From a virus: a stretch of 26,634 nt of DNA. The notes under the pieces are model-generated. The model did not search any database. It was not told the origin of the DNA and saw nothing but the letters and a program-made list of their open reading frames with translations. Location: IMG/VR virus record IMGVR_UViG_3300035666_000139, positions 1-26,634 of that record. One strand, 5' to 3'. Below, one piece after another: positions 1,233 to 25,181 of the stretch (position 1 is the first letter of the stretch; each line of letters starts with the position of its first letter). Position numbers and translations under genes: made by a program.

Positions 1233-3602
1233 ATGGCAAAGCTAACGTCAAAAGGCACTTACGCCGTTTCTGACTGGTCGAACGTTGACGCCCTGTTTCC
1301 GAAAACTCGGATGGGGACTGGCGCGGAAGACTCTGACGTCACATACCAGAATGACGCCTACACGCAATTCAAGAACCTAGAGAGCGGCTACTGGCTCCAG
1401 TTTTTGCCGCAACTTGGGTTTACTGGGCCGACTACCAAAGAGGTTGTCAACTCCCCCGGCACGGAAAACGAACAAAGAACGACGACGATTTCCGACGAGG
1501 CCGCTGCTGCAATCCAGCAGTTCAAAGCGCAAGGCTACGATGTTGTCATCAATCCCAACAAGATTGATTCTGGCAAAAAAAGCGCAACCGAATTTGCGTT
1601 TAAGACGCCAGATGGCAAGTTTCAAAAGACTTGGGAATACACCGGTGGCGCATGGTACGAGCAAGTTGCTCCGTACCTTGGATTGGTGCTGCCGGGAATC
1701 CTTGGCATGGCGGGCATTACCGCCGGTAGTCTCGGGGCGTCTATCACAGGGCAAACGTCTAACACTCTGCTGAACAACGCCGTCGGCGGAGCCATTATTG
1801 GCGGCGCAAAAGAACTGATTACCAGCGGCGGGGATGTTGAGTCCGCCATCAAGGGCGCCCTGACTGGCGGCGCGCTGGGTGCTGCGGCAGAGTTGGCGCA
1901 GCCATACATCAAGGACGCCGCAAACGCACTCTCGCGGCTGACCGGCGATGAAGTCGCTCAGTTGGCCGGCACCGATGCTGCGGCAACAGACGTTGCTGGC
2001 GACGTGGGCAGCGTGGATGTAGGTGGTGGGGCGCCGTTTATTGGCGACGAATTGTTGTCGCCAACAAATTTGGACAACGCCTACGCTAGCCTGTCGGATT
2101 ACGGAAGAACCGTTTACGACGCAGAGATTTCGCTTGGCACAACGCCTGACACAGCCCTTATCAGGGCCTACAAGGCAGATGCGCTGAACTTCCCGACGAC
2201 CGGCAACGCGCTGGCGACGGGCGGCGCTGAGGCAACTGGAAATGCGCTGGCCACGGACCAAAATGCGTTAGCTGGAAATGCGCTAGCATCTGCTCAAGAC
2301 CAATTTAACTTTGCAGGATTTACCGGGCCGCAATTTGCAAGATACGACGATTTGGTATCGTCTGGGTTGCCGCCAGAGATTGCGCGCGCACAAGTGTTGC
2401 AAGAGTTTGGGGCTCTTGATGTCGGCGCAGTTACTGGCGGCGCAACAACTGGAGCCGTTACCCCGCCCGGCGGCGTGGCAACCGTTGACCTGACCGCCGC
2501 ACAAACCGCTGGCCAAACCGCAGGCGCAGGCACTGTCGCCGACGCCGGAGCCAACCTCGGAGCCGCAGGCACTGCCGCAGGCGTAGTGGGAGCGGGTGCT
2601 GCGGGCGCGGGCGTTGCGGGTACAGGAACTGCTGGCGGCGGCCTGACCGTGCCTCCAGGCGCTGGGCTTGGCAATGCCGGTGCGATTACCACGCCAGGCG
2701 GCCTTGATTCGACCGTAGCAGGCGGCGGTGGCATCACTGCCGGCACAACTGGCGGCGCCGGTCTTGACACCAGCGGCCTAGTGCTCGGCGGCGCGCTCGG
2801 CGCAGGCGCTGCGGCAGGATCTGCGTTGCCTGTGGGAAGTGCTGCGGCAGCGGGATCGGCGCTGGGCGCCGGCACTGCCGCAGGAGCAGCAGCCGGCCTC
2901 ACCGGCATCCCCGTCGTCGACGACTTCCTCAAGTACATCGGCACGCCCGCAGGCGCTGCGGCGCTGGGTGCGTTCGGCAGTCTGGCGGGCGGGTATCTGA
3001 CGGGCCAAGCGGCAAAAGACGCGGCGCAGATCCAAGCGCAGTCGGCGGCAAACGCTCTCAAACTGCAGGAAGATCAGTTCGAATACCAGAAAAGCCTGCT
3101 GGAGCCGTACCGCGCGCGTGGCGAGTCTGCGCTGAACCGCTTGGCGGGCGTCATGGGCCTCGACGGCCAAGCCGCCCAGCCGCAGCAACTGCTGGAAATG
3201 GACCCCGGCTACGCCTTCCGCCTGGGTGAGGGCATGAAAGCGCTGGAGCGCGTGCAGGCCGCGCGGGGCAACATGCTGTCTGGCGGGGCGATCAAGGCAG
3301 GCCAGCGGTACGCGCAGGACTTCGCCTCGGGCGAGTACGGCAACGCGTACAACCGGCTAGCCAACATCGCCGGATTGGGGCAAACTGTCGGCGGTCAGTT
3401 GGGCTCTGCGGCCCAGCAGTTTGGCCAGACGGCAGGGGAAACGATGTCTCAAGGCGCAAATGCACTGGCGGCGGGGCGCATCGGCCGCACCAGCGGCTAC
3501 ATGAGCGGCATCGGTGGTGCCGTGGGCGCCTATCAGAACTACCAAAACCAGCAGCAGCAGAATCAGCTGTTCCGCGACATCTACGGCCGCATGGGAGGCT
3601 GA
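1233..3602 (+). CDS. Internal virion / DNA ejection protein (large, Gly-Ala rich)
   Basis: A 789-residue protein starting at an ATG preceded by GAGGTGAATC. Residues about 150-215 are hydrophobic and glycine-rich (GILGMAGITAG and similar). Residues about 320-570 are very low complexity Ala/Gly/Thr with repeated GNALA and GAGAAG-type words. The C-terminal 180 residues carry a conserved phage 'DNA transfer protein' pattern: a Gln-rich helix, LLEPYRARGESALNRL, LLEMDPGYAFRLGEGMKALE, AARGNMLSGGAIKA, and a Gln-rich end. In podoviruses such proteins travel inside the capsid or tail and form the channel through the cell envelope during DNA ejection. Placement between the fibre and two further ejection-like genes supports this. 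The middle region could also be assembly-related rather than membrane-active. Confidence 0.75.
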   Translation: MAKLTSKGTYAVSDWSNVDALFPKTRMGTGAEDSDVTYQNDAYTQFKNLESGYWLQFLPQLGFTGPTTKEVVNSPGTENEQRTTTISDEAAAAIQQFKAQGYDVVINPNKIDSGKKSATEFAFKTPDGKFQKTWEYTGGAWYEQVAPYLGLVLPGILGMAGITAGSLGASITGQTSNTLLNNAVGGAIIGGAKELITSGGDVESAIKGALTGGALGAAAELAQPYIKDAANALSRLTGDEVAQLAGTDAAATDVAGDVGSVDVGGGAPFIGDELLSPTNLDNAYASLSDYGRTVYDAEISLGTTPDTALIRAYKADALNFPTTGNALATGGAEATGNALATDQNALAGNALASAQDQFNFAGFTGPQFARYDDLVSSGLPPEIARAQVLQEFGALDVGAVTGGATTGAVTPPGGVATVDLTAAQTAGQTAGAGTVADAGANLGAAGTAAGVVGAGAAGAGVAGTGTAGGGLTVPPGAGLGNAGAITTPGGLDSTVAGGGGITAGTTGGAGLDTSGLVLGGALGAGAAAGSALPVGSAAAAGSALGAGTAAGAAAGLTGIPVVDDFLKYIGTPAGAAALGAFGSLAGGYLTGQAAKDAAQIQAQSAANALKLQEDQFEYQKSLLEPYRARGESALNRLAGVMGLDGQAAQPQQLLEMDPGYAFRLGEGMKALERVQAARGNMLSGGAIKAGQRYAQDFASGEYGNAYNRLANIAGLGQTVGGQLGSAAQQFGQTAGETMSQGANALAAGRIGRTSGYMSGIGGAVGAYQNYQNQQQQNQLFRDIYGRMGG

Positions 3603-3603
3603 C

Positions 3604-4800
3604 ATGCCGATCAATCCGAACATCCCGCTGCAAGCAGCGAACATTCCGCAGATCCGGTATCAGCCGGAGTCGCAATTTGAGTCGTTTGCCAAGATCCAGC
3701 CGACGCTGAATGCGATGCGTCAGATGCGGCAGGAACAGATGCAAACGCAGCAGAGCATGGCGGAACAGCAAGCGCTGCAAGAGATCCGCCAGCGCGGCTA
3801 CGATCCAGAGGAGATCGGTACGCTGCTGCAGATGCACGGCAAGACACAAGCGCAAATGGAGCTGGGCGTCAAGATGGTGAATGCTGCGCGCGCGGCAAGA
3901 GCCGATCAGCGGCCGTCGGTGGTTGGGCCTGGTTCGGCTCTTATCTCGCATGAGGGCAAAGAGCTGTATCGAGCCCCTCCAGTTGAAAGAGCGGAGCCGC
4001 CTGGCACCGAAATTTTGCAACTGCTCCGCGAACTCAATGCTTTGCCGGCCGACAGTCCTGATCGTGCGGTGTTGAAGGCGCGGATTGACAGGCTCAACGC
4101 CCCGCCTTCTGGCGTGACCATTCAAATGCCGGTTCCGGTTTACGATCCTAAAACCGGACAGACAACCTACGTTACACGAGAAGAGGCGCTCGGCAAAACG
4201 CCTGCATCTGCGGCACCAAAGCCGGTAGACACTACACAGTCAGAAGAACAGGCCGCAACTGCAACTGCGCGTCTTTTGAGAAGGTCGCGTGAAATATCTG
4301 CCGCGCTTCAACGCAGCCCTGCGGCAGAAGCCCCCAGTGCGATGGAGGCGTCAATTCAAAACATACCCGGCCTAAGTGCAGCAACCAATCTTGTCAGAAG
4401 TTCTGACAGGCAAATTGTCGCATCCGCTCAAGACGACATTCTTGATGCTTTGCTGTATCTGGCCACCGGCGCAGCGTACAACAAAGAGCAGCTGCAGCAA
4501 CAAAAGAATGCGTATTTGGCCTCATGGTCTGACAGTGCGGCAACCAGAGCAGTGAAACGCCAACGTCTTACTGACATGGTTCGGGATGCAAAAATTCGCG
4601 CCGGCAACGCTTGGACGCCGGAGCTTGATTCGCAGCTAAATTTGCTTCTTGAGAGCCCGACGATGCGACGGCAAAGCACTGGAGGAGCCGCGCAACCTGC
4701 GCCACGGCGCACGGCACCACAGTCATCCGCAATTCCTGCTGGCGTTGACCCGGAAGACTGGAAGTACATGACCGACGAGGAGAAAGCGCTGTGGAAATGA
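3604..4800 (+). CDS. Internal virion / ejection protein
   Basis: A 398-residue protein. The ATG at 3604 directly follows the TGA of the previous gene and gives MPINPNIPLQAANIPQIRY, a usual start for this class. An upstream in-frame extension to 3514 lies inside the preceding gene and is not chosen. Residues about 40-100 are Gln/Met-rich helices (QMRQEQMQTQQ), probably coiled coil. Residues about 240-360 carry a conserved phage domain with SDRQIVASAQDDILDALLYL, then a GAAYNKEQL motif and a stretch ending TRAVKRQRLTDMVRDAKIRAG. The C-terminus ends with a WKYMTDEEKALWK helix. Its position in a three-gene block between fibre and holin suggests a virion protein ejected with the DNA. No enzyme motif is seen. 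Confidence 0.7.
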   Translation: MPINPNIPLQAANIPQIRYQPESQFESFAKIQPTLNAMRQMRQEQMQTQQSMAEQQALQEIRQRGYDPEEIGTLLQMHGKTQAQMELGVKMVNAARAARADQRPSVVGPGSALISHEGKELYRAPPVERAEPPGTEILQLLRELNALPADSPDRAVLKARIDRLNAPPSGVTIQMPVPVYDPKTGQTTYVTREEALGKTPASAAPKPVDTTQSEEQAATATARLLRRSREISAALQRSPAAEAPSAMEASIQNIPGLSAATNLVRSSDRQIVASAQDDILDALLYLATGAAYNKEQLQQQKNAYLASWSDSAATRAVKRQRLTDMVRDAKIRAGNAWTPELDSQLNLLLESPTMRRQSTGGAAQPAPRRTAPQSSAIPAGVDPEDWKYMTDEEKALWK

Positions 4801-12362: not shown

Positions 12363-12923
12363 ATGGACAGGAAAACGAAAGCACTGATTGATGGACTGCC
12401 GCCTGCGCTGCGCAACCTGCTGTTGACGCGCACTGAGGAGGAGGGCGAGTGCCTGATCTGGACAGGGATGACCTGCGCAGCGTTCACGCGAGTGCCGCGC
12501 TGCCACTACGACTCTACCGGCGCGCACACAAAAGCCTCGCGCTCGCTGCGGCGCACGATTGCCGAGGCAATGGCGGGCAAGCCGTTGGGCAAGTTCGTGG
12601 CGTCCTGTATGTGCGGCACGCCGCTGTGCGTGCATCCCGCTCACCTAAGTGTGATGACCAGAAAAGCCGCGATGCAGCGGGCGTCGGCCGCAGGCAAGAT
12701 CAAGGGCGCGGCAACGACTGCGCGCAATCGTCTGAGCGGGCTGCGCCGGCGCAAACTCAACGACGATCAGATTCGGGAGATCCTGGCCCGCAGCGACGAA
12801 TCGCAGTCGCGCCTGGCGCTGGCGTACGGCGTCTGCCGCGCGACGATCGGCAACATCTTGCGCCGCAAACGGCGCGCGTCAGATGATATTTGGTCCGCTG
12901 TTTTTGCGAGGCTGGCAGCATGA
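12363..12923 (+). CDS. HNH-like zinc protein with C-terminal HTH, catalytic His replaced
   Basis: A 186-residue protein. Residues about 60-105 match the phage HNH pattern of the 'CgnPlCvnPeHL' type (SLRRTIAEAMAGKP, CGTPLCVHPAHL). In active relatives a V.H.C precedes this; here the run is VASCMC, so the usual His position is Cys. Residues about 140-180 form an HTH tail (LNDDQIREIL, QSRLALAYGVCRATIGNILRRKR) seen in homing nucleases and resolvase-like proteins. It is the first gene of the rightward operon and overlaps the VRR-NUC gene by ATGA. It may be a weak endonuclease or a DNA-binding regulator derived from one. Confidence 0.75.
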   Translation: MDRKTKALIDGLPPALRNLLLTRTEEEGECLIWTGMTCAAFTRVPRCHYDSTGAHTKASRSLRRTIAEAMAGKPLGKFVASCMCGTPLCVHPAHLSVMTRKAAMQRASAAGKIKGAATTARNRLSGLRRRKLNDDQIREILARSDESQSRLALAYGVCRATIGNILRRKRRASDDIWSAVFARLAA

Positions 12924-13402
12924 CAGAACGAGGCAGACGCACCCTGCGCGAGCAGATGCTCCGCAATCAGGCAACCGAAAACCTGTACGCCGCACTCAGC
13001 GGCAAACCGGCGCGGGAACTGCCGATACCGGCAGAGCCGAAAAAACGCGCACCAGCGCAGCCGTCAGGCGAGCCGAGCGAGGCCGAGATCCTGCGGGCGA
13101 TCGTGCAGCTGCTGAAGCGGCACCCGAAAGTCGCCATGTCGTGGCGCCAGAACTCCGGCACTTTCCAAGAGCGCAACCGCGACGGCAGCGTGCGCTATAT
13201 CCGGGCGAACACCCAGCGCGGCATGAGCGACATTATGGGCACGCTGAAGGACGGGCGCACGCTGGCCATCGAGGTCAAGTCGCGCACCGGCCGCATGAGG
13301 CCCGGGCAGGAGGAGTTCCTCGCGTCGATCCGCGCTGCGGGTGGCGTGGCGGGGGTTTGCCGCAGTGTTGAGGATGCAATCAGGCTGTTGGAGGGCGAAT
13401 GA
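12920..13402 (+). CDS. VRR-NUC domain nuclease
   Basis: A 160-residue protein from the ATGA overlap at 12920. After a basic N-terminal 50 residues, the VRR-NUC fold is clear: helix with E55 (SEAEILRAIVQLL), WRQNSGTF, RANTQRGMSDIMGTL with D104, TLAIEVKS with E118 and K120, GQEEFL with Q130, and the closing GGVAGVCRSVEDAIRLL. The family are PD-(D/E)XK structure-specific nucleases, standalone in many phages and a domain in FAN1. It probably resolves branched or flap DNA during phage replication. It is coupled to both neighbours by 4-base overlaps. Confidence 0.9.
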   Translation: MTERGRRTLREQMLRNQATENLYAALSGKPARELPIPAEPKKRAPAQPSGEPSEAEILRAIVQLLKRHPKVAMSWRQNSGTFQERNRDGSVRYIRANTQRGMSDIMGTLKDGRTLAIEVKSRTGRMRPGQEEFLASIRAAGGVAGVCRSVEDAIRLLEGE

Positions 13403-14529
13403 ATGAGTTGGCTCTTTTCGCGGGCGCTGGTGGAGGCATACTCGGAGGCCACCTCCTCGGGTGGCGAACCGTCTGCGCCGTTGAGTGGGAACCCTACGCC
13501 GCAAGCGTTCTTGCCGCCAGACAGAATGACGGCCTTTTCCCGCCCTTCCCGATTTGGGATGACGTTCAGTCCTTTGACGGAAGACCTTGGCGCGGCAGTG
13601 TTGATGTGGTGTCAGGAGGCTTCCCGTGCCAAGACATCAGCGTGGCCGGCAAGGGAGCAGGCATTGACGGAGCCCGCAGCGGAATGTGGGGGCACATGGC
13701 GCGGATCGTTGGCGAGGTTCGACCCCGCTACGTCTTCGTGGAGAACAGCCCAGCCCTCCTTACTCGAGGACTTGGGCGAGTCCTCGGTGACCTGGCCGCG
13801 CTCGGGTACGACTGCCGCTGGACAGTGCTGGGAGCTGCCGACGTTGGCGCCCCGCACCAGCGGGATCGGTTCTGGCTTGTCGCCAGACGGAGTGAAGACG
13901 TTTCACACGTTGAACACGAGCGGGCTGGATGGGGGGAGCAACAGCCGGAGGGCTTTGGCGAAAAGAGCAGAGTGGCCGACGCCGCGAGCGGGGAACCCTG
14001 GCAGTCGCCCGAACGGAAAGGGAGGCAAAGTGCTGGCCGAGGAGGTGGAGATTGCGGCAGGACTGAGGCAGCGCGGGGAGAGGATGTGGCCCACGCCGAC
14101 AACCATGCGCGGCATTACGAAAGAAGCCGCCGAGAAGGAGTGGGATCGGAAGGGGAGCGCGGATCTGCGCATGGCAGTGCATTTGTGGCCCACGCCGAGA
14201 GCCAGCGAAAACGATCAGGGCCGCAAAGCAGATGGGATGATGGACGGGGAAAGCAGTTGGAAGGCGCAGGGCCGTGGGGCGACGCTTACGACTGCGGTTT
14301 TGAGATGGACTACACCCACGGCGCACAACGCCAAGGGAACGAATGCTCCCAGCGAGAACGACCGGAACACGCCGACATTGGCGGCGCAGGTTGGTGGGCA
14401 ACTGAACCCGACGTGGGTCGAGTGGCTCATGGGGTGGCCGCTCGGGTGGACAGACTTAAAGCCATTGGAAACGGGCAAGTCCCCCTTTGCGCCGCAACAG
14501 CATTCAAATTACTGACGGAGACGGCATGA
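13399..14529 (+). CDS. dcm-like: DNA (cytosine-5) methyltransferase
   Basis: A 376-residue protein from the ATGA overlap at 13399. C5-methyltransferase motifs are in order: motif I LFAGAGGG (residues 6-13, SAM binding), motif IV GGFPCQDIS with nucleophile C77, motif VI ENS (115-117, usually ENV), motif VIII QRDRFW (154-159) and motif IX-X RLKAIGNGQVP (about 352-362). Between VIII and IX, where a target-recognition domain is expected, the sequence is low complexity, polar and punctuated by VADA/VAHA words. It probably methylates phage DNA against host restriction. The whole gene also contains another long frame (13403-14515). It is followed by the primase with an ATGA overlap. Confidence 0.92.
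   Translation: MNELALFAGAGGGILGGHLLGWRTVCAVEWEPYAASVLAARQNDGLFPPFPIWDDVQSFDGRPWRGSVDVVSGGFPCQDISVAGKGAGIDGARSGMWGHMARIVGEVRPRYVFVENSPALLTRGLGRVLGDLAALGYDCRWTVLGAADVGAPHQRDRFWLVARRSEDVSHVEHERAGWGEQQPEGFGEKSRVADAASGEPWQSPERKGRQSAGRGGGDCGRTEAARGEDVAHADNHARHYERSRREGVGSEGERGSAHGSAFVAHAESQRKRSGPQSRWDDGRGKQLEGAGPWGDAYDCGFEMDYTHGAQRQGNECSQRERPEHADIGGAGWWATEPDVGRVAHGVAARVDRLKAIGNGQVPLCAATAFKLLTETA
13403..14515 (+). CDS. Nested overlapping ORF, 'MSWLFSRALV' phage protein family
   Basis: A 370-codon frame lies wholly inside the methyltransferase gene, shifted by one. Its ATG at 13403 directly follows the VRR-NUC stop codon, so it is placed for reinitiation. The N-terminus MSWLFSRALVEAYSEA, the FDPATSSWRTAQ and TWPRSGTT segments, repeated WPTPRA/WPTPTT words, and the end QLNPTWVEWLMGWPLGWTDL match, as I recall, a phage and prophage protein family annotated as separate genes of unknown function. 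No domain or catalytic motif is recognised. Either both frames are translated or the recalled family consists of shadows; overprinting is my preferred reading. Confidence 0.6.
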   Translation: MSWLFSRALVEAYSEATSSGGEPSAPLSGNPTPQAFLPPDRMTAFSRPSRFGMTFSPLTEDLGAAVLMWCQEASRAKTSAWPAREQALTEPAAECGGTWRGSLARFDPATSSWRTAQPSLLEDLGESSVTWPRSGTTAAGQCWELPTLAPRTSGIGSGLSPDGVKTFHTLNTSGLDGGSNSRRALAKRAEWPTPRAGNPGSRPNGKGGKVLAEEVEIAAGLRQRGERMWPTPTTMRGITKEAAEKEWDRKGSADLRMAVHLWPTPRASENDQGRKADGMMDGESSWKAQGRGATLTTAVLRWTTPTAHNAKGTNAPSENDRNTPTLAAQVGGQLNPTWVEWLMGWPLGWTDLKPLETGKSPFAPQQHSNY

Positions 14530-20017: not shown

Positions 20018-20482
20018 ATGTTCCGCGACCTTCCTATCACCGCCAGAGAGCTAAAAGCCACGCCCGCAACGTTGGAGCGCATATACGACGGCGCGAAGCT
20101 GGGATTGCGCGGCGATTCGCTTGCGCTGGCTGCGGGTTTGTTGCCGGTGGAGTTGGCCCGGCTGAAGCTGATGGACCCGATCGCAGAGATCGCGGAAATG
20201 AAGGGCAGGGCGGACAGCGAAATGACAATGTCGCGCACGCTGTACGAAGCCGCGGAAGCGGGGGATTCGAAGGCGGCGCTGGAGTTCTTGAGGCACAGGC
20301 ATGAGTGGCAGGCAGCCCAGCGCATTCAGGTGGATGTCGCGCAGTCGATTTCGATTACTGCGGCGCTGGAGATGGCCGAGAAGCGCGTAAAGGCCGCCGA
20401 GGCGGTTGAGGATGCGGTGGAAATCCGTAGACCGCTGGCGCGGCCGCAGGCTCTGGCGGAAATGGCTGACGGTCCCGTGTAA
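20018..20482 (+). CDS. terS-like: Terminase small subunit-like protein
   Basis: A 154-residue protein. The ATG at 20018 (MFRDLPITARELKATP) is chosen; an in-frame ATG at 19877 would add 47 proline-rich residues read from the repeat region. Residues 10-60 are helical with a helix-turn-helix-like DSLALAAGLLPVELARL, residues 60-110 form a charged helical core (EMTMSRTLYEAAEAGDSKAALEFLRHRHEW), and the C-terminus is variable. Size, architecture and the TAATG overlap with the large terminase gene support a small terminase that recognises the packaging site. Its homology is weak by eye, so context carries weight. Confidence 0.75.
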   Translation: MFRDLPITARELKATPATLERIYDGAKLGLRGDSLALAAGLLPVELARLKLMDPIAEIAEMKGRADSEMTMSRTLYEAAEAGDSKAALEFLRHRHEWQAAQRIQVDVAQSISITAALEMAEKRVKAAEAVEDAVEIRRPLARPQALAEMADGPV

Positions 20483-22014
20483 TGCAGACGACGAAATACA
20501 CCCCGCAGGAGGAACAGGCGCTGATGAGTCGCCTGTGGAGCGCCAAGCTCCGCGACGACCCCGAAGCGTTCGTGATGTTCGTGTTTCCCTGGGGCGAGAA
20601 GGGTACGCCGCTGGAAAAGCGCAGCGGGCCACGGAAATGGCAGCGGGAGATTCTGCGGAAGATAAAAGCGCACATCGAGGAAAACGGCGACCGCGATATG
20701 TACGAGGTATTCCGCCTGGCGGTGGCCTCGGGGCGAGGGATCGGGAAGTCCGCGCTGGTGAGTTGGCTCGTACTCTGGATGCTGTCGACGCGGATCGGCG
20801 CAAGCGTGATCGTGAGTGCGAACTCCGAAGCGCAGCTCAGAAGCGTGACCTGGGCCGAGATTACGAAGTGGCTGGCGATGCTGATGAACGCGCACTGGTT
20901 TGAGATCAGCGCGACGCGGATTGTGCCGGCGAAGTGGCTCACCGAACTGGTGGAGCGCGACCTGAAGAAGGGCACCCGATACTGGGGCGCGGAGGGTAAG
21001 CTCTGGAGCGAGGAAAACCCCGACGCGTACGCTGGCCCGCACAACGACGACGGCATGATGGTTGTGTTTGACGAGGCCTCGGGTATTCCGAACAGTATCT
21101 GGAGCGTTGCTGCGGGGTTTTTTACCGAGAACACGCCGCACAGGTTCTGGTGCGCGTTCAGTAACCCACGGCGGAACTCTGGGTATTTTTTCGAGTGTTT
21201 TAACGCCAAGCGGAACTTCTGGAAGACGCAGAATATCGACGCCAGGACGGTCGAAGACACCGATAAAGGCGTGTACCAGGCGATTATTGACGAGTACGGC
21301 GAGGATTCGCCGCAGGCAATGGTTGAGGTATACGGCGAGTTCCCCGGCGCGGATGAATACCAGTTCATCCCGCTGGGGCTGGTGGAAGAAGCCGGTAAGC
21401 GGCCGCCGATGCGCGACCCGGAGGCACCCGTGGTGCTGGGCGTGGACCCCGCGCGGTACGGCGCTGACGCGACGATTATTGTGGCGCGCCGGGGCCGGGA
21501 TTTGCTCGAAGTGCGACGGTTCCGGGGCGATGACACGATGACGGTGGTGGGGCACGTCATTGAGGCGATTGAGGATTTTCGGCCGGTGCTGACGGTGATT
21601 GACGAGGGCGGCCTGGGCGCGGGCGTGCTGGACAGACTGCTGGAGCAGCGGTATAAGGTGCGCGGTGTGAATTTTGGCTGGAAGGCCAAGGATCAGAAGG
21701 CGTACCAGAACAAGCGGGCTGAGATGTGGGGCGCGATGAAGCAGTGGCTGCGCACGGCGTCGATCAAGGACGACAGGAACCTGAAGAAAGACCTGTGCGG
21801 CCCGAGGACGCGGCCGAACTCGTCGGGCGCGATTGCGCTGGAGACGAAGGAGCAGATGAAAACCCGGGGCTTGGCTTCGCCTGACGCTGCTGACGCACTG
21901 GCGGTAACGTTTGCGTTCCCCGTGGCGCACAGGGAGTACAATCCGCGCAGCCAGCACCGGGTGGTTACGACGCACGGGGGAGCCATGCAGTCGGCCGGGT
22001 GGATGGCGCACTGA
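20482..22014 (+). CDS. terL: Terminase large subunit
   Basis: A 510-residue protein whose ATG overlaps the previous TAA. The ATPase half has Walker A SGRGIGKS (residues 83-90) and Walker B VVFDEA (194-199). The RNase-H-like nuclease half has acidic residues at D322 in LGVDPARYGAD, D374-E375 in VIDEGGLG, and D468/D471 in SPDAADAL. The enzyme cuts concatemeric DNA and pumps it into the prohead through the portal. Length and motif spacing fit a complete protein. It follows the small subunit and is separated from the portal gene by four small genes. Confidence 0.95.
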   Translation: MQTTKYTPQEEQALMSRLWSAKLRDDPEAFVMFVFPWGEKGTPLEKRSGPRKWQREILRKIKAHIEENGDRDMYEVFRLAVASGRGIGKSALVSWLVLWMLSTRIGASVIVSANSEAQLRSVTWAEITKWLAMLMNAHWFEISATRIVPAKWLTELVERDLKKGTRYWGAEGKLWSEENPDAYAGPHNDDGMMVVFDEASGIPNSIWSVAAGFFTENTPHRFWCAFSNPRRNSGYFFECFNAKRNFWKTQNIDARTVEDTDKGVYQAIIDEYGEDSPQAMVEVYGEFPGADEYQFIPLGLVEEAGKRPPMRDPEAPVVLGVDPARYGADATIIVARRGRDLLEVRRFRGDDTMTVVGHVIEAIEDFRPVLTVIDEGGLGAGVLDRLLEQRYKVRGVNFGWKAKDQKAYQNKRAEMWGAMKQWLRTASIKDDRNLKKDLCGPRTRPNSSGAIALETKEQMKTRGLASPDAADALAVTFAFPVAHREYNPRSQHRVVTTHGGAMQSAGWMAH

Positions 22015-22023
22015 GGGTCTGTC

Positions 22024-22278
22024 ATGGCAAAGTCGGTGTCTCTGAGCGTTGGTCGAGGCGAAAAGCTGCCCACGAAGCAGGGCGCTGGTCTGACGGCTAA
22101 AGGCCGCGAGAAGTACAACCGTGAGACCGGCAGTAATTTGAAAGCGCCGGCGCCAAATCCGAAGACTGAGGCTGACAAGGCGCGGAAGAAGTCGTTCTGT
22201 AGTAGAATGCACCCTATCGCAGAAAAAAGCGAAGAGGGTAGCCGTGCAAAAGCCGCAATGCGACGCTGGAAGTGTTGA
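22024..22278 (+). CDS. Small basic phage protein (DUF6321-like)
   Basis: An 84-residue basic protein starting MAKSVSLSVGRGEKLPTKQG, followed by GLTAKGREKYNRETGSNLK and KKSFCSRMHP, and ending with AKAAMRRWKC. This order is known to me from a widespread phage family located between terminase and portal, often called DUF6321, without a settled function. Its basic nature and position suggest a DNA-associated or capsid-interior protein. It appears full length. It lies two bases before the homing endonuclease start. Confidence 0.8.
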   Translation: MAKSVSLSVGRGEKLPTKQGAGLTAKGREKYNRETGSNLKAPAPNPKTEADKARKKSFCSRMHPIAEKSEEGSRAKAAMRRWKC

Positions 22279-22279
22279 A

Positions 22280-22717
22280 ATGTGGGCCGACATCCAAGGA
22301 TACGAAGGCCGATACCAAGTGAGCACGCTTGGCCGGGTCAAGTCCTTGGCTCGTTTCCGCAAAACCAAAGGCGGCGGCCAAACTTGGATGCCTGAGCGCA
22401 TCATGCGTTTGACGCCCAAGAAAGAAACCGGGCGCACCAAACCGTATGTTGAAGTGCGTTTGCGTGACGGCGGCCCAAGAACTGAGCCTTGCAGGTCGTT
22501 TTTGGTGCATCGGCTTGTAGCGCACGCGTTTATCAAGCCGCTTGAGCGCGACGAAGAAGTTGATCACCGCAATGGCGTGCATTCAGACAACCGCGTTGAA
22601 AATCTTCGAGTGTTGCACAAGGTTGAGCATGGCAGAATGCACCCCTGCATAGTGCATAGAGCGACTGTGCAGGGCGGAAAAGGTCAACTTTTGCCCTCAC
22701 ACATGAGGACAGCATGA
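22280..22717 (+). CDS. HNH homing endonuclease with NUMOD4 domain
   Basis: A 145-residue protein from the ATG at 22280; an upstream GTG at 22244 lies inside the previous gene. NUMOD4 is visible at residues 1-22 (MWADIQGYEGRYQVSTLGRVK). The HNH_3 nuclease core follows: VHRLVAHAFI, then EEVDHRNGVHSDNRVENLRVL with the catalytic His in VDHRNG and the Asn residues in place. Such genes are free-standing homing endonucleases that cut intronless or unoccupied sites. It sits between two small basic protein genes and overlaps the next by ATGA. The last 25 residues are atypical. Confidence 0.88.
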   Translation: MWADIQGYEGRYQVSTLGRVKSLARFRKTKGGGQTWMPERIMRLTPKKETGRTKPYVEVRLRDGGPRTEPCRSFLVHRLVAHAFIKPLERDEEVDHRNGVHSDNRVENLRVLHKVEHGRMHPCIVHRATVQGGKGQLLPSHMRTA

Positions 22718-22878
22718 AAAAACCCGGCGATCCAGGGCTCTACGCCAACATCAACGCCAAACGCGAGCGCATTGCTGCAGGAAGCGGCGAAAAAATGCGC
22801 AAGCCAGGCGCCAAAGGCGCGCCGACGGCCAAGGATTTCCGCGAGTCGGCCAAAACGGCCAAACCGAAGGGGAAATGA
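22714..22878 (+). CDS. Small basic phage protein (54 aa)
   Basis: The ATG at 22714 overlaps the homing endonuclease stop. The 54-residue product with GLYANINAKRERIAAGSGE, KMRKPGAKGAPTAKDF and a Lys-rich end is a very common short protein between terminase and portal genes in podovirus-like phages. It has no known function that I recall. High Lys/Arg content suggests nucleic-acid or scaffold interaction. Confidence 0.8.
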   Translation: MKKPGDPGLYANINAKRERIAAGSGEKMRKPGAKGAPTAKDFRESAKTAKPKGK

Positions 22879-22879
22879 C

Positions 22880-23026
22880 ATGCCTCTGGTGAAATCGGCG
22901 TCCAAGGACGCGTTTCGCAAGAACGTGAAGACCGAAATGGCGCACGGCAAGCCGCAAAAGCAGGCTGTGGCCATTGCGTACAACACGCAGCGTGCGGCCA
23001 AGGCGCCTGCGAAGGGCAAGAAGTAA
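22880..23026 (+). CDS. Small basic phage protein (DUF6496-like, 48 aa)
   Basis: The ATG at 22880 is one base after the previous stop. MPLVKSASKDAFRKNVKTEM, then HGKPQKQAVAIAYNTQR, is the signature of a short helical family found beside phage portal genes (DUF6496-like). It is basic and has the PQKQAVAIAY helix seen in almost all members. The role is unknown, but the position is highly conserved. It is followed by the portal gene after one base. Confidence 0.8.
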   Translation: MPLVKSASKDAFRKNVKTEMAHGKPQKQAVAIAYNTQRAAKAPAKGKK

Positions 23027-23027
23027 C

Positions 23028-25181
23028 ATGGCACGCGACGACGGCATCAACGGGGCTCGGCGGGTAGCCGACGGCGGCTCGGACAAGTCTGAACTGCTGG
23101 CAGAAATGCGCACGCGGATGCAGTCCGCGCAGGCTGCGTTTTCGCTCACGCGGCAGGCTGAGCTGGACGACCTGCGGTTTATGGCCGGCAGCCCGGACAA
23201 CAACTGGCAGTGGCCGCAGGACGTGCTTGCAACGCGCGGCAGCGTGCAGGGCCAGACGGTAAACGCCAGGCCGTGCCTGACGATCAACAAACTGCCGCAA
23301 CACGTCCGCAACGTCACCAACGAGCAGCGCCAGAACCGCCCTAGCGGCAAGGTGATCCCTGCCGACGACCGCGCCGATCCCGAGGTGGCCGAGATTTTTG
23401 ACGGCATCGTGCGGCACATCGAGTACATGTCTGACGCCGACGTGGCGTACGACACGGCCTGCGACAATCAGGTCACGTTCGGCGAGGGGTACATCCGCCT
23501 GCTGACGGAGTACTGCGACGAGGACACGTTCGATCAGGACATCCGCATCGGCCGCATCCGCAACGCGTTCAGCGTGTACATGGACCCGATGATCCAAGAC
23601 CCCTGCGGGTCGGATGCGCGGTACTGCTTCATCACGCAGGACATCACTGTCGACGAGTTTGAGCGGATGTTCCCCGACGCCACGCCGATTACGACGCTGC
23701 GCACGCAGGGCGTGGGCGATGCGTCGATGGGGTACTGGCTGAACGAAAACACGGTGCGGATCGCCGAGTATTTCCGCATCGAAGAAGAACGCGCCACGCT
23801 GAACCTCTATCCTGGCGGCTTGACGGCGTTCAAGGGGTCGTTTGAGGCTCGCCAGATGGAAGCGATGGGCATGGAGCCCCTGCGCACGCGGGAGTCGTCC
23901 AAGCGCGTTGTAAAGTGGATGAAGACCAACGGTTTTGAGGTTTTGGAGGAGCAGGACTGGGTCGGGAAGTACATTCCCGTGGTGCGCGTGGTGGGCAACG
24001 AGTTTGAGGTGGATGGCGAGATCCACGTCTCGGGCTTGGTGCGCAACGCCAAGGACGCCCAGCGCATGTACAACTACTGGGTGTCGCAGGAAGCCGAAAT
24101 GCTGGCGCTGGCCCCGAAGGCGCCGTTTATCGGGTACGGCGGGCAGTTTGAGGGCTACGAGAACCAGTGGAAGACGGCCAACACGCAGAACTGGCCGTAT
24201 CTGGAGGTAAACCCTGATGCCACAGACGGAGCCGGAAACTCTTTCCCGCTTCCTCAGCGGGCGCAGCCGCCGATGGCGCAGCAGGGGCTTATCGCCGCCA
24301 AGATGGGCGCCGCTGACGACATCAAGGCAACCACGGGCCAGTACGACCCATCTCTCGGCGCGACTTCCAACGAACGATCGGGCCGCGCTATTCTGGCTCG
24401 TCAGGCTCAGAGCGATACCGGAACCTACCACTATGTGGATAACTTGGCCCGAGCCATACGCCATGTGACGCGCCAGATCATCGACATGATCCCGAAGATC
24501 TACGACACGCAGCGCGTGGCGCGGATCATTGGCATGGACGGCCAGACGTCGATGGCCAAGATCAACCCGATGCAGCCCGAGCCGGTGCGCGAGTTGAAGG
24601 ACCAGAACGGCGTCACCATCGAGAAGATCTACAACCCCAGCGTCGGCCGATACGACGTTGTGGTCACCACGGGTCCGTCGTACCTGACCAAACGCCAGGA
24701 AGCGATGGATGCCATGTCGCAGATCCTGCAGGGTTCGCCGCAGTTGTGGGCTGTGGCCGGCGACCTGTTTGTAAAGAACATGGACTGGCCTGGCGCGGAA
24801 GAACTGGCTGAGCGCCTGCGCAAGACGATCGACCCGAAGTTGCTGCAGGATCAGGACGACCCGGCGTTGCAGGCTGCAAACCAGCAGATTCAGGTGCTGA
24901 CGCAAGAGATGCAGGCCATGCAGCAGATGCTGCAGAACGTCCAGCAGTCGATGGAAGCGCAGAAGATGAAGGTCGACACGTTCAAGGCCGAGTCTGACGC
25001 CGAGATTAAGGCGTACGAGGCCGAAACGCGTCGTTTGCAGGCTGTGCAGACCGGCATGACGCCCGAGCAAGTGCAGGAGATCATCATGCAGACCATGCGC
25101 GACATTGCCACTGTGGGCGACATGTCGATCGCTATGCAAGGCCAGATGCCCACGGCTGCACCACAGGGGATGCCAGTATGA
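23028..25181 (+). CDS. Portal protein, P22 type
   Basis: A 717-residue protein started at the ATG at 23028; the longer frame begins inside the previous gene. Family features of P22-like portals are present: LDDLRFMAGSPDNNWQWP and RPCLTINKLPQHVRNVTNEQRQNRP near the N-terminus, FGEGYIRLLTEY, VYMDPMIQDPCGSDARYCF, PYLEVNP and SNERSGRAILARQAQS further on. Residues about 605-700 form a Gln/Met-rich coiled coil (QQIQVLTQEMQAMQQM), like the barrel region of the P22 portal. The dodecameric portal is the DNA gate of the capsid and docks the terminase and tail. It overlaps the next gene by ATGA. Confidence 0.93.
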   Translation: MARDDGINGARRVADGGSDKSELLAEMRTRMQSAQAAFSLTRQAELDDLRFMAGSPDNNWQWPQDVLATRGSVQGQTVNARPCLTINKLPQHVRNVTNEQRQNRPSGKVIPADDRADPEVAEIFDGIVRHIEYMSDADVAYDTACDNQVTFGEGYIRLLTEYCDEDTFDQDIRIGRIRNAFSVYMDPMIQDPCGSDARYCFITQDITVDEFERMFPDATPITTLRTQGVGDASMGYWLNENTVRIAEYFRIEEERATLNLYPGGLTAFKGSFEARQMEAMGMEPLRTRESSKRVVKWMKTNGFEVLEEQDWVGKYIPVVRVVGNEFEVDGEIHVSGLVRNAKDAQRMYNYWVSQEAEMLALAPKAPFIGYGGQFEGYENQWKTANTQNWPYLEVNPDATDGAGNSFPLPQRAQPPMAQQGLIAAKMGAADDIKATTGQYDPSLGATSNERSGRAILARQAQSDTGTYHYVDNLARAIRHVTRQIIDMIPKIYDTQRVARIIGMDGQTSMAKINPMQPEPVRELKDQNGVTIEKIYNPSVGRYDVVVTTGPSYLTKRQEAMDAMSQILQGSPQLWAVAGDLFVKNMDWPGAEELAERLRKTIDPKLLQDQDDPALQAANQQIQVLTQEMQAMQQMLQNVQQSMEAQKMKVDTFKAESDAEIKAYEAETRRLQAVQTGMTPEQVQEIIMQTMRDIATVGDMSIAMQGQMPTAAPQGMPV

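Follow-up and report, generated by a model that had tools for sequence, protein, structure and literature searches.

A phage C5-cytosine DNA methyltransferase probably encoded as two polypeptides in two reading frames of the same DNA

The window analysed here is a stretch of 26,634 nucleotides, positions 1 to 26,634 of IMG/VR virus record IMGVR_UViG_3300035666_000139, and its gene content marks it as coming from a tailed phage, with terminase, portal and ejection proteins. Near its center is a C5-methyltransferase gene (alpha, read in frame 0) that wholly contains an open reading frame of 370 codons (beta, coding for the MSWLFS protein) in the +1 frame; the coordinates of both, of their parts and of their neighbors are shown in Table 1. 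The location of the alpha/beta gene within the replication block is consistent with, rather than proof of, a protective methyltransferase role. Two further long frames, of 736 and 799 codons, are open on the minus strand at 20326–22536 and 22740–25139, opposite the terminase and portal genes, and these probably reflect GC-rich codon bias.

Table 1. Features of the alpha/beta locus and its neighbors, in window coordinates.
Feature	Coordinates	Strand	Basis or remark
HNH-type endonuclease	12363-12923		upstream of alpha
VRR-NUC/endonuclease-like gene			upstream; ends at the TGA shared with the dual start
GGAGG Shine-Dalgarno and dual start ATGAATGAG	13390..13407	+	sequence; relatives share the layout
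alpha, C5-methyltransferase, 376 aa	13399..14529	+	frame 0; PF00145 E=3.1e-34; phrog_363 E=1.3e-69
alpha residues about 1-166, motifs I-VIII; about 350-362, motif X (VDRLKAIGNGQVP)			frame 0
beta, MSWLFS protein, 370 aa	13403..14515	+	+1 frame; phrog_1008 E=3.5e-26
Frame 0-dominant part (motifs I-VIII), beta residues 1-160 beneath	13403..13878	+	codon-position rates; BLOSUM test
beta variable region, repeated [W/T][P/T]TP cassettes; frame 0 a predicted-disordered spacer	13972..14401	+	
Motif IX, beta frame (LNPTWVEWLMGWPLGWT)	14402..14452	+	invariant columns; form and place
Motif X, frame 0 (VDRLKAIGNGQVP), overlapping the beta C-terminus	14449..14487	+	frame 0 dominant
Primase/helicase	from 14526		downstream of alpha, ATGA overlap

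The alpha and beta start codons lie 4 nt apart within ATGAATGAG (ATG at 13399 and ATG at 13403, respectively), and the TGA at 13400–13402 is the stop codon of the upstream VRR-NUC-like ORF. The GGAGG at 13390–13394 has a spacer of 4 nt to the alpha start and of 8 nt to the beta start. An earlier note on this DNA had described a 1,113-base frame lying wholly within the methyltransferase gene, with both starts placed at the VRR-NUC stop, and had taken the beta ending WTDLKPLETGK for the +1 reading of motif X; both ORFs and both starts are as it described, and WTDLKPLETGK is indeed the +1 reading of VDRLKAIGNGQ. In the relatives, an NTG is located 4 nt ahead of the beta ATG at 151 of 162 loci, the beta ATG itself is present in nearly all, and a G-rich Shine-Dalgarno peak lies at -13 to -9 relative to it. 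The remaining 11 of the 162 (about 7%) have no NTG at the alpha position, and alpha must therefore start elsewhere there. At these loci (L018 and ten others) the NTG at -4 to the beta ATG is replaced by TTA, CTA or CTC, and those with TTA or CTA retain the beta-frame stop as TAA.

The alpha protein has the motifs I–VIII expected of PF00145, including the catalytic PCQ and ENV/ENS, with FAGAGGG, GFPCQDIS, VENS and GAPHQRDR all present in frame 0. Motif X follows the variable region as RLKAIGNGQVP, with the GNxVxP pattern and a helix predicted at pLDDT 84. Motif IX is absent from the alpha chain and is found instead in the +1 frame, so the enzyme counts as a C5-methyltransferase only when the two chains are taken together. 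An AlphaFold2 model of alpha aligns with M.HhaI over 187 residues (Z 16.7); residues 1–168 and the motif X helix are confidently modelled, and residues 169–358 have pLDDT values of 30–44.

The beta protein is less readily recognized. The window beta has no match in Pfam, isolated betas have no methylase match there, and a beta profile compared with solved structures gave no convincing match (best E 0.13). Its AlphaFold model is of low confidence (mean pLDDT 53), with the motif IX helix at about 87. All 79 aligned nested betas match PHROG 1008 ('DNA methyltransferase'), a family that also takes the second genes of phages Eros, Phlei, Euratis, Andrew and Leyra, and that carries no statement of a subunit role or of dual coding. 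Nineteen beta columns are invariant, among them L334, N335, W338–E340 and L342–W345 of motif IX; LNPTWVEWLMGWPLGWT has both the form and the location of this motif, and at nearly all loci the distance from its start to the downstream RLKxIGN of motif X is 38 nt. Units of the [W/F/L]PTP type, each about 39 residues long, make up the variable region, with 0–5 per beta (WPTPRAGN, WPTPTTMR, WPTPRASE and TTPTAHNA in the window). Across 180 betas there are 416 such cassettes in 88 arrangements, and recognizable types recur between loci; single-linkage clustering lumped half of the cassettes into one cluster, and only the smaller, clear types were relied upon. Their position and shuffling suggest that the units may be target-recognition cassettes, each for one target.

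In the window alone, the +1 frame remains open in 11% of synonymous-codon shuffles (P about 0.11), which is not significant, and window-only openness was dropped as evidence. Relatives were sought in IMG/VR with the beta and the alpha proteins, and the counts are among the matches listed, at least 600 stretches for each. Relatives retrieved with the alpha protein are unselected for the +1 frame, and among the matches listed this frame is open to motif X in 41 of 42 complete alphas; the +2 frame of the same 42 has about 19 stops on average. Frequent +1 stops in close relatives, which had been named beforehand as grounds for doubting a second gene, were not seen, one relative (L153) having a stop. 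At 91 motif-filtered loci there are no +1 stops, against 254 expected in the motif I–VIII part and 179 from the variable region to motif X, and the 33 alpha-found loci among them likewise have none, against 94 and 75 expected. The expectations derive from synonymous shuffling, and these figures overstate the independent evidence since the loci are kin, but the deficit is total. At 198 of 198 loci, beta takes the +1 frame with respect to alpha and has no stops under the variable region.

Which frame is constrained in which part was determined from codon-position rates, expressed as differences per site at alpha positions 1/2/3 in 38 disjoint close pairs, with alpha positions 1, 2 and 3 corresponding to beta positions 3, 1 and 2. 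Under motifs I–VIII the rates are typically about 0.07/0.03/0.16 and alpha is dominant in seven of eight bins. In the variable region they are about 0.26/0.08/0.08 and beta is dominant in all six bins, as it is in motif IX (0.125/0.041/0.031; 7/7 bins together with the variable region), and at motif X alpha is dominant again (0.044/0.023/0.186). From these rates and the correspondence of positions, the main reading frame is handed over cleanly at the domain borders, from alpha to beta and back to alpha. The alpha stretch beneath the beta variable region is simply kept open, as beta-synonymous changes there have no effect on alpha beyond the control (+0.18 vs +0.13).

Constraint on beta beneath motifs I–VIII is seen in changes that are synonymous in alpha. 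The resulting beta changes are conservative, with a BLOSUM score of +0.39 (95% interval 0.33–0.46, stops excluded) vs -0.04 (-0.14 to 0.05) in the unused +2 frame as control, and the test is positive in all five sub-regions. Synonymous divergence is minimal under beta DRMTAFSRPSRFGMTF and around SWRTAQPS..SVTWPRSG. Neighboring genes proved weak controls for synonymous conservation, the window neighbors being shared by too few relatives and the pooled neighbor genes having only a modest synonymous reduction at equal identity, and the patch profile and BLOSUM test were therefore used instead.

Together, these overlap-aware tests of constraint (stop deficit, BLOSUM and codon-position rates) argue strongly for the dual coding that the earlier note had proposed. 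Its description of a long overprinted pair holds for the N-terminal 160 or so beta residues under motifs I–VIII, which look to be the sole part of the MSWLFS protein that is truly overprinted, and fails for the second half. Nor does the pair account for the origin of an unrelated orphan family, as the note had surmised, since the second half of beta comprises the variable region and motif IX belonging to this very methyltransferase, and over that stretch the beta frame is the more constrained of the two. For beta residues 1 to about 160 we see an even chance that they form a domain born by overprinting within motifs I–VIII, the beta start having moved upstream from within alpha to 4 nt past the alpha start, and that this domain acquired its own role, most probably to clamp or dose alpha.

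The same parts are arranged in several ways in related phages and prophages. In Mycobacterium phage DillTech15, gp66 has motifs I–VIII, four PTP cassettes, motif IX and motif X, the same parts as in the window, but all in one frame, and the +1 frame has 13 stops. Its motif IX is AAAFPEWMMGWPAGWV, and the window beta motif IX aligns with EWMMGWPAGW. The window alpha aligns to gp66 residues 1–212 (E=1e-35) and the window beta to residues 181–410 (E=4e-7); Mycobacterium phage Eros contributes a further match, its second gene covering residues 253–439 (E=5e-45). Eros, Phlei, Euratis, phiBT1 and Andrew have a staggered form in which alpha ends past motif VIII and a +1 beta carries the cassettes, motif IX and motif X; the second protein of the staggered relatives is an annotated gene, and mostly non-overlapping. 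Motif X is in the +1 frame at L172, L235, L001 and L004 (and L005), and frame 0 then has 3–7 stops under the variable region. L172 (Paraburkholderia adhaesiva, 2983–4497) and L235 (a Spirochaetia genome, 3001–4167) are useful natural experiments on frame 0 decay: motif X is in the beta frame, alpha stops soon past motif VIII, the variable region has six to seven frame 0 stops, and the beta frame is open.

Several individual loci have features of their own. Five (L072, L086, L181, L238 and L160) have motif X in frame 0 yet have one or two frame 0 stops under the variable region, which may reflect decay, sequencing error or another arrangement. In Streptomyces phage phiBT1 (NC_004664.2; L001, 2293–3340), gene 9.1 is labelled 'DNA methylase may be inactive', and an unannotated +1 ORF (2411–3340) bears cassettes, motif IX and motif X, so that this may simply be an active enzyme in two pieces. 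Gene 34 of Streptomyces phage Euratis (L004, 2360–3355) is annotated from 2768, but the +1 ORF extends back to 2360 and its part ahead of the annotated start is homologous to beta; the gene start has probably been called too far downstream. In Pseudomonas phage phPA-G (L008, 2501–3229) the beta frame is annotated as a hypothetical protein and the alpha methyltransferase frame is unannotated.

No beta was found without alpha, all 88 genome and named-phage loci examined having a methyltransferase in the neighboring frame. The stand-alone homologues for which the earlier note had suggested a search are thus lacking among these loci, but this does not refute coding, as the second protein is an annotated gene in the staggered relatives and is fused in frame in the single-chain ones.

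In our interpretation (probability about 0.88), the locus codes for a single C5-cytosine DNA methyltransferase made as two polypeptides, each read from its own frame of the shared DNA. Judged by sequence, this reading draws on the two frames and their conserved openness, the switch in frame dominance, the amino-acid constraint, and the finding that a single-chain enzyme is homologous to both parts. Both chains would be translated from one messenger with one Shine-Dalgarno sequence, initiating at the starts 4 nt apart. Alpha would form the large domain (motifs I–VIII and X), with AdoMet binding and catalysis, and beta the small domain, with motif IX and the proposed target-recognition cassettes for DNA recognition, the two assembling into a heterodimer that acts as one methyltransferase. 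The alpha codons under the beta variable region would be an unstructured open spacer that brings the ribosome to motif X, and the first 160 or so residues of beta an overprinted extension, constrained at the amino-acid level and perhaps forming an interface with alpha. Each cassette would specify one target site, and we infer that methylation would protect the phage DNA from restriction.

The +1 frame could instead be an untranslated shadow, open only through GC-rich codon usage and the constraint on the methyltransferase, as might be suggested by the 11% of window shuffles that remain open and by the lack of a Pfam family for beta. We give this a very small chance, given that no +1 stops occur at the 91 loci where 433 are expected, that beta is dominant in the variable region and synonymous changes are beta-conservative, and that when motif X moves, frame 0 decays and the +1 frame does not. 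Another alternative is that beta is an independent overprinted protein with its own job (e.g. anti-restriction) unrelated to methylation. In its favor, alpha alone does not account for the conservation of the first 160 beta residues, and the single-chain relatives lack an equivalent of them. The second half of beta, however, shares homology with the small domain of a single-chain C5-methyltransferase, and every beta at the loci examined was accompanied by alpha, which makes an independent role highly improbable.

Programmed frameshifting, in which ribosomes would pass from frame 0 (motifs I–VIII) to +1 (variable region and motif IX) and back for motif X to make a single canonical chain, is also unlikely, with a small chance of being correct. 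The constrained parts, read in frames 0, +1 and 0, would spell a canonical enzyme, and single-chain relatives exist. Two opposite shifts would be required, however, and frameshifting needs neither a beta start, where the ATG, about 8 nt from the Shine-Dalgarno sequence, hardly varies, nor an open and constrained +1 frame under motifs I–VIII, both of which are seen.

Lee, Kam and Shaw reportedly described in 1995 that in M.EcoHK31I the gene for the small subunit lies within that for the large one, in a different frame. In this enzyme (YGGCCR) the larger subunit has motifs I–VIII and X, and the smaller polypeptide has motif IX (PMC3404938), which, compared by description, is the division seen in the window. 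The window differs in that beta begins 4 nt after alpha and extends across the entire alpha gene, and in that the beta N-terminus is overprinted and constrained. The target-recognition domain (TRD) of M.EcoHK31I is predicted to be in the larger subunit (PMC3404938), a published placement that is a counterpoint to the split-enzyme interpretation, whereas in the window the constraint on the variable region lies in the beta frame, and alpha is predicted to be disordered there; we therefore liken the window enzyme to M.EcoHK31I and do not identify it as one. M.AquI (CYCGRG) is also made as two polypeptides, with motifs I–VIII in one and IX–X in the other (PMC3404938). Unlike M.AquI, the window enzyme keeps motif X in alpha, but L172, L235, Eros, Phlei and Euratis have the M.AquI order, with motifs IX and X in the small subunit. 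Work on tandem target-recognizing domains in multispecific phage C5-methyltransferases is cited in the reference lists of PMC8936443 and PMC12707154, and by analogy with these domains each cassette here may have its own target. The SPR, phi3T and H2 enzymes similarly have tandem exchangeable units between motifs VIII and IX, but are single chains, whereas the enzyme here is split and has a cassette specificity that we infer. Our literature search found no paper on the phage overlap at scale.

At 1.1 kb this is a long and well-supported case of overlapping frames, present in hundreds of viral contigs and in prophages from several bacterial phyla. It accounts for a family whose members are labelled 'hypothetical' in some records and as another 'DNA methyltransferase' in others. 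When only frame 0 is cloned or annotated, as for many phage C5-methyltransferases, the proposed recognition half would be missing and the enzyme would seem inactive. For overlap-detection methods, the change of dominant frame where domains meet is a clean positive control, and with single-chain, staggered and nested forms all available, it can be tested directly how an overlapping gene arises and what it costs. If the overprinting origin of the beta N-terminus holds, the gene would be a dual-coding mosaic whose dominant frame runs 0, +1, 0 over the length of one enzyme, and its exchangeable specificity cassettes would be evolving under the demand that both frames stay readable.
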